DNA from: an uncultured Treponema sp.
GTDB lineage: Bacteria; Spirochaetota; Spirochaetia; Treponematales; Treponemataceae
Length of the DNA: 49,985 nucleotides
Assembly (NCBI GenBank): GCA_947170195.1
Contig: CAMVSS010000003.1
Span: 1-49,985, forward strand
Direction of reading: 5' to 3'
Position 1 is the stretch's first letter; each line of letters begins with the position of its first letter. Positions 22,933-48,989 of this stretch are shown in pieces. Under the pieces are notes generated by a model. It was not told the origin of the DNA. It saw nothing but the letters and a program-made list of their open reading frames with translations, and did no database searches. The translations under genes were made by a program, and so were the position numbers.

Positions 22933-22961
22933 TTGACACAAAATGAAAATTAGCATATTCT
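22933..22961 (+). promoter_or_regulatory. Sigma70-type promoter of the DUF3793-flavodoxin unit
   Basis: TTGACA (22933-22938), a 17-base spacer and TATTCT (22956-22961) predict a start near 22968. The operator-like repeats begin at the -10. Confidence 0.7.
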
Positions 22962-22993
22962 AACAGTGTAAGTTAGCCACAACTAACTGTTAG
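22960..22993. promoter_or_regulatory. Clustered GTTAG/CTAAC operator, DtxR-like
   Basis: In 34 bases there are four alternating CTAAC and GTTAG half-sites: CTAAC at 22960, AGTTAG at 22971, CTAACT at 22983 and GTTAG at 22989. They form overlapping palindromes over the -10 and +1. AGTTAGCC resembles the middle of the DtxR consensus (GGTTAGCCTAACC). An iron-sensing repressor of the DtxR family is the best guess. Confidence 0.6.
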
Positions 22994-28844: not shown

Positions 28845-28929
28845 AAAAAAAAAGGCTGCCTGATAAGTTCATGTCATTGCTGCGTTTTGCGCATTGTAAG
28901 CAGATGACATTTAAGCTTATTGGACAGCC
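28845..28929 (-). terminator. Long hairpin with T-run on the minus strand (outer-membrane gene terminator)
   Basis: GGCTGCCTGATAAGTT (28854-28869) pairs with AAGCTTATTGGACAGCC (28913-28929). An inner stem ATGTCAT/ATGACAT lies within, and an A-run at 28845-28853 gives a T-run on the minus strand. It fits the 3' end of the outer-membrane gene, which implies an untranslated tail of about 230 bases. Confidence 0.65.
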
Positions 28930-28931
28930 GG

Positions 28932-28982
28932 GCAAGTTTCAGAAGTTTGTTAGTTTTGAAACATTGCTTACAAAAACCTCAT
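28932..28982 (-). repeat. 51-base dispersed repeat, copy 1 (inverted relative to 36912-36962)
   Basis: It contains the GTTTCAGAAG/GTTTTGAAAC hairpin and the flank TTACAAAAACCTCAT. Read in reverse complement it matches 36912-36962 at 48 of 51 positions. Confidence 0.85.
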
Positions 28983-29009
28983 ACCATTGTGGCTTTTGAT
29001 GTAAACTTG

Positions 29010-29057
29010 GAGGCTGTTTCAAAAATCGTCTGACTTTTGAAACAGCCTCTGCTTTTT
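29010..29057 (+). terminator. Terminator-like hairpin, TTTCAAAA family, after kduI
   Basis: GAGGCTGTTTCAAAA (29010-29024) and TTTTGAAACAGCCTC (29035-29049) are perfect complements followed by TGCTTTTTT. It can end kduI transcripts about 190 bases after the stop. Confidence 0.75.
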
Positions 29058-35139: not shown

Positions 35140-36819
35140 ATGATTCTGAAACTTATTAATTTTGTCGGAAGTTTGTGTTTCCTCCTCTACGGCATGAAGC
35201 TGATGAGCGATGGAATTCAAAAAAGCGCCGGACAGCGGTTGCAGGCGGCTCTTGCCTTTATGACAGGCAACCGTTTTGTCGGGCTTTTGACCGGCTGTAT
35301 TCTCACTATGATCATACAGTCGTCAGGGGCAACCACGGTAATGCTCGTAAGCTTTGTAAACGCGGAGCTTGTTACCGTAGTTCAGGCAATCGGCGTTATT
35401 TTTGGCGCGAACATCGGTACGACGGTTACGGGCTGGATTGTCGCGCTCGGCTCAAGCTTCGAAATCAAAGATTATGCAATCCCGATTTTTGGTTTGGGCT
35501 ATCTTTTCTATATCTTAAAAAAATTCAAGTCAAAAGAAGGATTCTGGCTTGCAATCATGGGCTTCGGCCTGCTTTTCTTTGGACTCGGCGGTCTTTCTAA
35601 CTTCTTTGCAGAACCAATCGTAAAATCTTTTGTAATCAATTTTATAAATCAGGTAAACGACTTCGGAATCATCAGCTATGCGATCGGTCTTTTTATCGGA
35701 ATCGTGCTGACGGCTCTGATTCATTCTTCTTCGGCAATGTCGGCTATCGTAATCGGTATGGCTGTCGCAATGTCAAAGGAAGGAAATGCGAGCATCGAGG
35801 AGCTGAACGAATTCTGGCGGTTCGGCGCGATAATGATTATCGGAAGCTCGGTCGGATCTACGGTTGATGCAATTCTGGCTGCAATTGGGGCGAATGCGAA
35901 TGCGAAGCGAACTGCGGCGGTTCACGTGCTCTTTAATGTGGCAACGGTGATAATCGCACTCATTTTCTTCAAGCCGTTCATCGCTTTCGTAGAGCTTGTT
36001 TCTCCTGGTCATAACATCGTTTTCAGAATCGCAATGCTCAACACGGCGTTCAAAGTCATGGGAACGGTGATTTTTATTCCTTTCGTAAATCAGATTTCAA
36101 AATTTGTCAGCATAATCATCAAAGACGATGTGGTCAGCGAAGAAAACGTTTACAGGCTTGAATTCAACGAGCGAATGGCAATCGAATCTCCTGAAGGTTG
36201 TGTTTTCCGCGCTCAAAAAGAAATCACTGTCTTTTCAGATGTGGTTGTTCAGATGTTCGATGAGCTTCAGACCGGGCTGCTTAAATTCGGGAAGGAATTT
36301 TTGGAAACCGGATATCAGCAAATTGAAAAACTTGAGAACTATTGCGACCAGATGAACGAGCAGCTTACACAGTATCTCGTGCGCTGTACGCACCTCCATT
36401 TGAGCGATGAGGCAAAGGACAATGTTGCGCTCATGATGCAGCTCATAGGCGAGATGGAGAGCATGTCCGACGGATGTCTGAACATCGCTTCTCAGCTCAA
36501 AAAGGCAATTGAAAAAGAAATGTCATTCAGGCAGGAAGATTTCGAGCGTCTTCTTCCTTATTTTGAGCTGGCACGCCAGCTGCTCTATTTTATTCATAAA
36601 AATGTTGCTAAAATTCAGAAGCTCACTCAAGAGCAGTTTGACTTTGCGAGCGAGCTTGAGCAGCAGATTGACGACGAGCGAAAAGCGCTCAAAAAGATTG
36701 CAAGGAAGCGTCTTGAGAGCGGTGCCGATGTCAAATCAGAATTGCTTTACATGGACATCATCCGGCAGATTGAAAAAATTGGTGACAGATGTTTCGATGT
36801 TGCCGGAGATTTGCGATAA
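35140..36819 (+). CDS. Na/phosphate cotransporter with PhoU-like tail
   Basis: A 559-residue protein of the NptA/YjbB family. The duplicated membrane core has the QSSG signatures IIQSSGATTVMLVSF (about 62-76) and LIHSSSAMSAIVIGMA (about 192-207), with GANIGTT in the first repeat and SSVGSTVDAILA in the second. Residues 390-555 form helical PhoU-like segments (MDIIRQIEKIGDRCFDVAGDL). Such proteins import phosphate with sodium or, in YjbB, export it. A 2-base gap joins it to the PASTA gene. Confidence 0.93.
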   Translation: MILKLINFVGSLCFLLYGMKLMSDGIQKSAGQRLQAALAFMTGNRFVGLLTGCILTMIIQSSGATTVMLVSFVNAELVTVVQAIGVIFGANIGTTVTGWIVALGSSFEIKDYAIPIFGLGYLFYILKKFKSKEGFWLAIMGFGLLFFGLGGLSNFFAEPIVKSFVINFINQVNDFGIISYAIGLFIGIVLTALIHSSSAMSAIVIGMAVAMSKEGNASIEELNEFWRFGAIMIIGSSVGSTVDAILAAIGANANAKRTAAVHVLFNVATVIIALIFFKPFIAFVELVSPGHNIVFRIAMLNTAFKVMGTVIFIPFVNQISKFVSIIIKDDVVSEENVYRLEFNERMAIESPEGCVFRAQKEITVFSDVVVQMFDELQTGLLKFGKEFLETGYQQIEKLENYCDQMNEQLTQYLVRCTHLHLSDEAKDNVALMMQLIGEMESMSDGCLNIASQLKKAIEKEMSFRQEDFERLLPYFELARQLLYFIHKNVAKIQKLTQEQFDFASELEQQIDDERKALKKIARKRLESGADVKSELLYMDIIRQIEKIGDRCFDVAGDLR

Positions 36820-36837
36820 ACGGTAGAGGTACTTTCA

Positions 36838-36855
36838 AAAGTCCGGACGGACTTT
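36838..36855. repeat. Small perfect hairpin after the phosphate transporter
   Basis: AAAGTCC (36838-36844) and GGACTTT (36849-36855) pair around a 4-base loop. A weaker GTTG/CAAC stem follows. It may help end the upstream transcript, but no T-run is next to it. Confidence 0.45.
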
Positions 36856-36911
36856 GCTAGTTGCTACGCAACCGCAAATGCTTCCGAATTTACCTCAAAA
36901 AACGCAATGAA

Positions 36912-36962
36912 ATGAGGTTTTTGTAAGCAATGTTTCAAAATTAACAGACTTTTGAAACTTGC
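36912..36962 (+). repeat. 51-base dispersed repeat, copy 2
   Basis: ATGAGGTTTTTGTAA is followed by the GTTTCAAAA...TTTTGAAAC hairpin. It is the reverse complement of 28932-28982 apart from three bases, and shares its hairpin core with 2613, 29010 and 48934. Confidence 0.85.
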
Positions 36963-36985
36963 TCGATATATTTTACGGAGGGTAA

Positions 36986-37018
36986 GCATGTATGAGTCAA
37001 AAGGCGACTCATACATGC
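36986..37018. promoter_or_regulatory. Perfect 13-bp inverted repeat ahead of the DtxR-type gene
   Basis: GCATGTATGAGTC (36986-36998) and GACTCATACATGC (37006-37018) pair around 7 bases. The right arm also matches ATGTATGAGTC at 37037-37047, which covers the real start codon, giving an alternative hairpin with the AAGGAGG ribosome site in its loop. It may be an RNA switch or an operator. Confidence 0.7.
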
Positions 37019-37026
37019 GATATTAA
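36988..37026 (+). CDS. Candidate 12-codon leader peptide upstream of the DtxR-type gene
   Basis: The ATG at 36988 has GGAGGG about 6 bases upstream and reads MYESKGDSYMRY before TAA. Its first four residues equal those of the downstream regulator (MYES), and its stop overlaps the edge of the downstream ribosome site (AAGGAGG, 37025-37031). It spans the whole 13-bp inverted repeat, so its translation would unfold that hairpin. The arrangement is typical of leader-peptide control. It could instead be a chance product of a local duplication. Confidence 0.4.
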   Translation: MYESKGDSYMRY

Positions 37027-37036
37027 GGAGGTAAGT

Positions 37037-37399
37037 ATGTATGAGTCGGGCGAAGATTATCTTGAAGCGATATTGCGGCTTCAGCTTGAGAACGGATTTG
37101 TTCGTTCTGTAGATGTTGCTCACAAACTCAATGTTTCACGTCCGAGCGTGAGCCGGGCAATGGGCTTACTCCAAAAAGACGGATATATTGAATTTGTCAT
37201 GGGAAACATGATCAAACTGACGGAAAAGGGTAAATCTGCCGCAGAAGATATTTATGGGCGACATAAGCTCCTTACAAAATTTCTTGTTAAGATTACTGGT
37301 CTTCCTGAAGATCAGTGTGAGGAAAATGCTTGTCGCATTGAGCATGATGTCGATGCGGATGTAGTTGCCGGTATACAGAAGTGGGTTTCCGAAAATTGA
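37037..37399 (+). CDS. DtxR/MntR-family metal-dependent repressor
   Basis: A 120-residue winged-helix regulator of the short MntR type (no SH3-like domain). The DNA helix is VAHKLNVSRPSVSRAMGLLQKDGYI. Metal ligands by alignment are Asp7 and Glu10 (GEDYLEAI), His in YGRHKLLTKF, and Cys, Glu and His in ACRIEHD. Cys at the fifth position follows DtxR (Cys102), whereas the Asp near the N-terminus follows MntR (Asp8). This mixture makes Fe2+ or Mn2+ hard to choose. I use the ATG at 37037, 6 bases after AAGGAGG. A leader ORF and inverted repeats precede it. The downstream lipoprotein starts 15 bases after the stop. Confidence 0.88.
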   Translation: MYESGEDYLEAILRLQLENGFVRSVDVAHKLNVSRPSVSRAMGLLQKDGYIEFVMGNMIKLTEKGKSAAEDIYGRHKLLTKFLVKITGLPEDQCEENACRIEHDVDADVVAGIQKWVSEN

Positions 37400-37413
37400 G
37401 GATAAATCTCTCC

Positions 37414-37938
37414 ATGAAAAAAATCAGTATTTATAGCGCGATTTTAGTTTGTGCGATCGTACTTTTAAGCTCGTGCAATCAGAAAGACGCAAAAAATGAT
37501 TTTGCATCTTCCGTTTCTGCTCAAGATGCTCCTGCGCAAGAAGATATTCCAGAAACGACGGAATCAAAGCCTGTGGCGGAAGACAAACCTTTTACAGGTG
37601 TGGTCGACCGTGATTTTACCCGGATGAATTCCAACATGGTTTATGCGGAAGTTTTCAATATGATGATCGACCCGGAAAGCTATGTCGGAAAATATTTCAA
37701 GATGAAGGGCAAAATCAAAACTTTTGAGGATGGCGCGCTATCATCTCCGTCTTATGCGGTTATAGTTTCCGATGCTCTTGCCTGCTGCCAGCAGGGAATC
37801 GATTTTGTGTACGATTTCAACGGAAATCCGCCTCCGGAGGATTCTGAGATTGTCGTCGTTGGAAAATTTGTCCTTGCTGAACTGAACGGTGGAATTTCTT
37901 ACATCTATCTTGATGCGATAACTGTGGATAGGGCGTAG
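37414..37938 (+). CDS. Hypothetical lipoprotein
   Basis: A 174-residue lipoprotein (lipobox LLSSC, Cys about 21). A Ser/Ala/Glu/Pro-rich linker of about 40 residues follows (SAQDAPAQEDIPETTESK). The folded part shows YAEVFNMMIDPESYVGKYFKMKGKI, SYAVIVSDALACCQQGIDFVYDF and EIVVVGKF, an OB-like pattern of strands. I do not recognise a family. It contains a CC pair (ALACCQQG). It lies 15 bases behind the metal-dependent repressor, probably in the same operon, so a role in metal handling at the envelope is possible but unproven. Confidence 0.78.
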   Translation: MKKISIYSAILVCAIVLLSSCNQKDAKNDFASSVSAQDAPAQEDIPETTESKPVAEDKPFTGVVDRDFTRMNSNMVYAEVFNMMIDPESYVGKYFKMKGKIKTFEDGALSSPSYAVIVSDALACCQQGIDFVYDFNGNPPPEDSEIVVVGKFVLAELNGGISYIYLDAITVDRA

Positions 37939-48933: not shown

Positions 48934-48970
48934 AGCATTTCAAAAGTAACAGACTTTTGAAACATTGCTC
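48934..48970. repeat. TTTCAAAAG/CTTTTGAAA hairpin repeat, thi operon copy
   Basis: TTTCAAAAGT, then AACAG, then ACTTTTGAAA form a 10-bp perfect stem, followed by CATTGCTCG. The same core and loop (TAACAGAC) occur at 36931-36957. It lies 20 bases downstream of the thiF stop. Confidence 0.8.
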
Positions 48971-48989
48971 GTTTTTTTTACTTTAAAAA

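Follow-up and report, generated by a model that had tools for sequence, protein, structure and literature searches.

We identified, ahead of the gene for a DtxR/MntR-type metalloregulator of an uncultured Treponema sp., a rare, real and shared rearrangement of a gene start that is probably regulatory. In the window, i.e. the whole stretch of 49,985 nucleotides analysed here (GCA_947170195.1, contig CAMVSS010000003.1), the start segment ATGTATGAGTC is present twice, beginning at 36988 and at 37037, and between these lies a perfectly matching inverted copy that can pair with either of the two; the same layout is present in a second Treponema species, both species being from the rumen, and relatives carry an empty site. 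As the best explanation we propose, tentatively and at rather less than even confidence, that translation of a short leader would be coupled to translation of the regulator and that the arrangement would have originated by duplication with inversion. If the arrangement does work as a switch, it would show how a single replication error can make a device for controlling translation out of the start of the very gene it acts on. The two carriers together with their empty-site relatives make both origin and function testable.

Layout of the leader

The 60-nt leader sits between a Na/Pi cotransporter gene (35140-36819) and the regulator gene. The features are as follows.

36960-36976, plus strand: TGCTCGATATATTTTAC, predicted to be able to pair with the start region of the regulator in transcripts that begin at or upstream of about 36960; no counterpart seen in the second species
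36977-36982, plus strand: Shine-Dalgarno sequence GGAGGG of the leader ORF, read directly from the sequence, with GGAGG 6 nt from the ATG
36986-37018, plus strand: hairpin 1, formed by the leader start and the inverted copy, with 13 bp around the loop AAAAGGC, -21.4 kcal/mol
36988-36998, plus strand: direct copy 1 of ATGTATGAGTC, from the sequence and repeat searches
36988-37026, plus strand: leader ORF, MYESKGDSYMRY and stop, from the sequence; counterpart MYESKCDSYIISGG and stop in the second species
36992-37036, plus strand: possible in-frame N-terminal extension of the regulator, MSQKATHTCDIKEVS, judged unused
37005-37050, plus strand: hairpin 2, formed by the inverted copy and the regulator start, with 14 bp and the regulator Shine-Dalgarno sequence in its loop region, -22.4 kcal/mol
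37006-37016, plus strand: inverted copy GACTCATACAT, the arm common to both hairpins
37025-37031, plus strand: regulator Shine-Dalgarno sequence, AAGGAGG, with which the stop codon of the leader overlaps
37037-37399, plus strand: DtxR/MntR-type metalloregulator, 120 aa, with PF01325 and PF02742 and with IdeR, MntR and DtxR as closest structures

Read 5' to 3', the order is GGAGGG, ATGTATGAGTC, AAAAGGC, GACTCATACAT, GCGATATTAAGGAGGTAAGT and again ATGTATGAGTC, the second direct copy (37037-37047) being the regulator start. The leader ORF (ATG TAT GAG TCA AAA GGC GAC TCA TAC ATG CGA TAT TAA) comprises 12 codons, the first 11 nt of which are a copy of the regulator's start; in the window genome its frame differs from that of the regulator, and its stop codon TAA (37024-37026) overlaps AAGGAGG ahead of the regulator ATG. 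A preceding reading made from the sequence only had described the start segment as occurring three times, once inverted, and had reported the 12-codon ORF with its own GGAGGG, the overlap of its stop with the regulator's ribosome site and a pairing of 13 bp between the inverted and the first copy. All of these points hold, the 13 bp being reached when the flanking GC is counted; the 11 bp given for the pairing with the third copy were an underestimate, as we computed 14 pairs.

The idea that the first 13 codons had been copied in tandem and had since decayed to give the whole leader was considered and rejected: the similarity is borderline in the window (p = 0.046), where GGCGA and GCGATATT are common to the leader and these codons, and absent in the second species (p = 0.83), and we therefore claim only the first 11 nt and the Shine-Dalgarno sequence as copies. 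The leader Shine-Dalgarno sequence is directly abutted by a dispersed intergenic repeat of approximately 30-70 nt (36900-36976), which contains a GTTTCAAAA...TTTTGAAAC hairpin and recurs at 28929-28989 (minus strand), at 48938-48981 (plus strand) and about 25 more times elsewhere in the genome.

A second carrier and the empty site of its sister

The second carrier is Treponema sp. RGIG4505 from roe deer omasum (JAFUHS010000193.1; genome G023, locus L010/L066), in which the sequence reads GGAGGATACA-ATGTACGAATC-AAAATGC-GACTCGTACAT-TATATCAGGAGGCTAAAGT-ATGTACGAATC, with the same direct-inverted-direct order and the two starts 48 nt apart compared to 49 nt in the window. Three bases (AGT) separate the TAA of its leader from the regulator ATG. 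The leaders of the two species range from 12 to 14 codons and have in common the peptide MYESK-DSY, i.e. MYESKGDSY in the window and MYESKCDSY in RGIG4505. Alignment of the inserts yields a score of 18.5 versus -2.7 +/- 2.9 for shuffles, and the 40 nt upstream of the insert do not align. The loop and spacers alone, with arms and Shine-Dalgarno sequences left out, give p = 0.0004, which argues against two independent origins. Among the remaining 272 of 274 family genomes searched, the leader layout is absent. Of two findings that the sequence-only reading had named as speaking against its proposal, a duplication in one strain only does not apply, as the layout is also found in RGIG4505; the other, relatives without the leader ORF, did appear, most relatives lacking it.

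The sister of RGIG4505, L085 (UBA3813), whose neighbouring gene is 90% identical to that of RGIG4505 at the DNA level, has no insert, and its empty site reads GGAGGATTTTATGTACGAGTCGGGCGAAG. The leader Shine-Dalgarno sequence of RGIG4505 aligns with the regulator's own Shine-Dalgarno sequence of L085, so that the leader Shine-Dalgarno sequence and start would correspond to the old ones of the regulator, and the second Shine-Dalgarno sequence and start to the insert. The empty site thus points to an insertion duplicating and inverting the regulator's own start as the derived state. No insert is present in L080, L082, L083 (listed a second time as L058, with the same gene start) and the outgroups. 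In the tree, the window branches first, followed by L080, L082, L083 and the pair of RGIG4505 and L085. Since the carriers are not sisters, the element was probably gained once and then precisely lost several times, each loss needing no more than a deletion between its two 11-bp direct repeats, or it moved between lineages, two origins being less likely. As a separate observation, L053 (G116) has an exact inverted copy of the start (GATTCGTACAT) 49 nt upstream of the regulator, within an apparent promoter (TTGACGATTCGTACATTTTTTGGTATACT) and outside the expected transcript, perhaps by chance.

The 29-nt leader hairpin is identical at 25 of 29 positions (86%) between window and RGIG4505, compared to 44% of the third codon positions of the regulator and 52% of those of the neighbouring gene, corresponding to p about 3e-6 and 1e-4, respectively, if these values are taken as the expected identity. 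Because the hairpin is far more alike than the third codon positions of the regulator, the element was probably inherited in common or transferred, and has been retained since. Of its four differences, TAT/TAC, GAG/GAA and TCA/TCG leave the leader peptide unchanged, and GGC/TGC alters it. The arms retain 11 of 11 pairs in the window and 10 of 11 in RGIG4505. For an insert dating back to the split, these pairs would hardly be expected to survive neutral drift (a chance of about 1e-5 at 52% identity), an argument that falls if the element was transferred recently. Compensatory changes, proposed earlier as a check, were seen at the pair at position 6, which changed on both sides from U-A to C-G in both hairpins; another pair is broken in RGIG4505 in both hairpins (G-C to A-C), and with two sequences the covariation lacks significance, roughly one in two shuffles matching it.

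Rarity of the pattern

The fold of 36970-37060, which the sequence-only reading had suggested as a check, has a predicted energy of -26.2 kcal/mol (z = -5.3), none of 200 shuffles being equally stable. Scanning for similar starts in the 711 kb of loci from the analysis, we found one other exact direct-inverted-direct set of 10-mers, which lies in a dispersed repeat, and none in 1 Mb of shuffled sequence. This other set, TTTTGAAACA, is located at 28954-29045 of the window, where the dispersed repeat has one of its copies. A direct repeat with 25-55 nt spacing is present in 2 of 274 family genomes, in both at the regulator gene. Relaxing the inverted-repeat search to up to 2 mismatches gave other matches within the genus, none of them at a regulator start; the one that was read, in L134, appears to lie within coding sequence. 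The exact pattern and protein searches of viral contigs returned no matches, and no Rfam family matched 36500-37500 at E up to 1.

Predicted balance of the two hairpins

Taken by their energies alone, the two hairpins of the window are predicted to be near-isoenergetic and mutually exclusive, as the sequence-only reading had proposed, and both can also form in RGIG4505, with -14.9 kcal/mol for hairpin 1, which there extends to 15 pairs, and -12.8 kcal/mol for hairpin 2. The minimum free energy structure of 36970-37060 is hairpin 2. In these predictions the hairpin balance depends on the transcript 5' end: with the 3' end at 37060, hairpin 2 leads in the window for 5' ends at 36963-36977 (53-86%), and hairpin 1 leads for 5' ends at 36960 or earlier (74-99%), a 5' end near 36960 allowing TGCTCGATATATTTTAC to base-pair with the start of the regulator. 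When the 3' end is extended by 30 bases, hairpin 1 takes the lead in all window constructs, narrowly for the shortest. For RGIG4505, hairpin 1 leads in every construct (88-99%) and hairpin 2 is nearly absent. Hairpin 2 is thus the predicted default only in some short window constructs and in none of RGIG4505, so that the earlier idea of a regulator start locked in a stem survives as one of two predictions for the window and is not shared by the second species. We found no intrinsic terminator or sigma-70 promoter within 36780-37100, which leaves transcription attenuation without support.

Proposed working and rival explanations

The data suggest a model in which an error of the template-switch type during replication or repair, by duplication and inversion, would have inserted a second Shine-Dalgarno sequence, a second start and the inverted copy, the old regulator start thereby becoming the start of the leader. 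As the inverted copy may pair with either start, only one start could be closed at a time, and the mRNA would be partitioned between hairpin 1 (leader closed, regulator open) and hairpin 2 (regulator closed, leader open). With hairpin 2 formed, a ribosome translating the leader would melt the inverted arm and end on or next to the regulator Shine-Dalgarno sequence, resulting in translation of the regulator and in a weak translational coupling. The mutational origin, the translation of the leader and an effect of the pairing on regulator synthesis are what we infer from the arrangement, and a translation-coupling switch in a hairpin leader is plausible. The translation control of a metal sensor by its leader that had been suggested earlier is likewise plausible, the layout speaking for it and the leaderless state of most relatives against it. 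We regard as doubtful the more specific version according to which a decoy of the regulator's own start and one antisense arm would form a self-derived symmetric switch, made in one mutational step and selected in two species without a good operator box.

A serious rival, with a substantial, if minority, chance of being correct, is that the layout is a mutational relic whose perfect match template switching has preserved. It would have no regulatory role, the gene being translated from the new start and the arms being matched by further template switching or conversion. The direct-inverted-direct order is a possible product of template switching, which has been reported to create and to maintain RNA hairpins (PMC8794818), and within each species both direct copies are identical though they differ between the species. 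The layout is rare in the family (2 of 274 genomes), and in RGIG4505 the inverted arm mirrors the 5' flank of the leader further than that of the regulator, as expected for a copy of the old start. Copy correction, however, leaves unexplained the near-identical loop AAAA(G/T)GC and spacers as well as the predominance of silent changes in the frame of the leader, and a hairpin flanked by 11-bp direct repeats would be expected to be lost readily if it were useless.

We consider two independent insertions unlikely. They would accommodate the non-sister position of the carriers and the sister of RGIG4505 without insert, and would make the likeness uninformative on age or selection, but the similarity of loops and spacers, the nearly same length and the same breakpoints speak against them.

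The regulator and its start

The regulator is, judged from its domains, an ordinary DtxR/MntR-type protein, which bears out the earlier assignment: the N-terminal DNA-binding domain (Fe_dep_repress, 46.9 bits, cut-off 26) and the C-terminal metal/dimer domain (Fe_dep_repr_C, 55.1 bits, cut-off 27) both score above cut-off, and the closest solved chains are those of IdeR, MntR and DtxR. The scores of 72.5 versus 153 and 70.8 versus 138 bits for the MntR equivalog (NCBIfam) are below cut-off, so that we describe it as DtxR/MntR-like, not as MntR proper. Its start at 37037, read earlier as MYES, agrees with the relatives, which also start at MYES, most of them with a Shine-Dalgarno sequence at the usual distance. 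These starts speak against translation from the second ATG at 36992, which lies 10 nt from GGAGG, is in frame with and open into the regulator and would add 15 residues to give a 135-aa protein. No family matches such an extension, and the family scores are no higher when it is included; because an in-frame TAA directly precedes the regulator start in the second species we judge it to be unused and the alternative start to be very unlikely.

Operator boxes and regulon context

Boxes of the type GTTAGNNNNNNCTAAC lie ahead of the regulator in several relatives, 13 of 93 upstream regions having 9-10 of 10 matches, compared to 0.5% expected from shuffles. The window genome has perfect or near-perfect boxes at other genes. 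Tandem boxes at 22949-22964 and 22972-22987 precede a DUF3793 gene and a flavodoxin gene and are likely the operator of the DtxR-type regulator and of an iron-limitation operon; near-perfect boxes lie in L152 (1501-1516) just before a NifH-family gene and in L155 (1501-1516) just after a FeoB C-terminal fragment, and the genes at these boxes together suggest an iron-related regulon. Upstream of the regulator itself, the box has 9 of 10 matches in the sister of RGIG4505, 7 of 10 in RGIG4505 (decayed) and 6 of 10 in the window (absent). As L083 also has no good box (7 of 10) and no leader, the lack of a good box in both carriers is no more than suggestive. The palindrome acting as a DNA operator of the regulator in place of the box found in several relatives is a very unlikely reading, since with 11-bp arms of ATGTATGAGTC and a 7-nt spacer it is unlike the box, boxes persist elsewhere in the window genome, and L083, without a good box, has no palindrome.

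Comparison with known systems

In classical ermC attenuation, a leader peptide and alternative hairpins govern the start of the main gene. Leaders of erm genes (ermC/ermB) combine a leader peptide with alternative hairpins that hide or free the main start (PMC11264731, PMC8274638). Judged by sequence, the Treponema leader shares with these attenuators an ORF with its own Shine-Dalgarno sequence upstream of the main gene. Leaders of erm genes react to drug-stalled ribosomes, whereas in the Treponema leader the hairpin arm copies the start of the gene itself, and we recognised no known stalling motif in the leader and know of no drug link. CruR (DUF2946), a copper-sensing upstream ORF, is an example of control of metal homeostasis via translation of an upstream ORF (PMC9426467). 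It senses copper by CXXC and acts via Rho-dependent termination, whereas the Treponema leader has 12 aa and no conserved metal motif, a single Cys being present in RGIG4505 only.

In uof-fur of Escherichia coli, a short upstream ORF is translationally coupled to an iron regulator (PMC12683245). Both systems have a short ORF upstream of a metal regulator and coupling, which is proposed for the Treponema leader, and in both carriers the distance from leader stop to main start would permit coupling, the stop overlapping the regulator Shine-Dalgarno sequence in the window and being separated from the ATG by AGT in RGIG4505. Control of uof-fur differs in acting via the small RNA RyhB on uof, and the regulator is Fur, not DtxR as here. 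To our knowledge, uof itself contains no copy of the fur start.

For the DtxR family, the terms tried in our literature search retrieved no paper linking its regulators with leader-ORF coupling. TroR of Treponema denticola and T. pallidum is a DtxR-like metal-dependent repressor with a dyad operator, the control described there being transcriptional, with translation and a leader unmentioned (PMC2628430). If the proposed coupling is true, control by a leader ORF would be added to the DtxR/MntR family, which is known for control via DNA operators.
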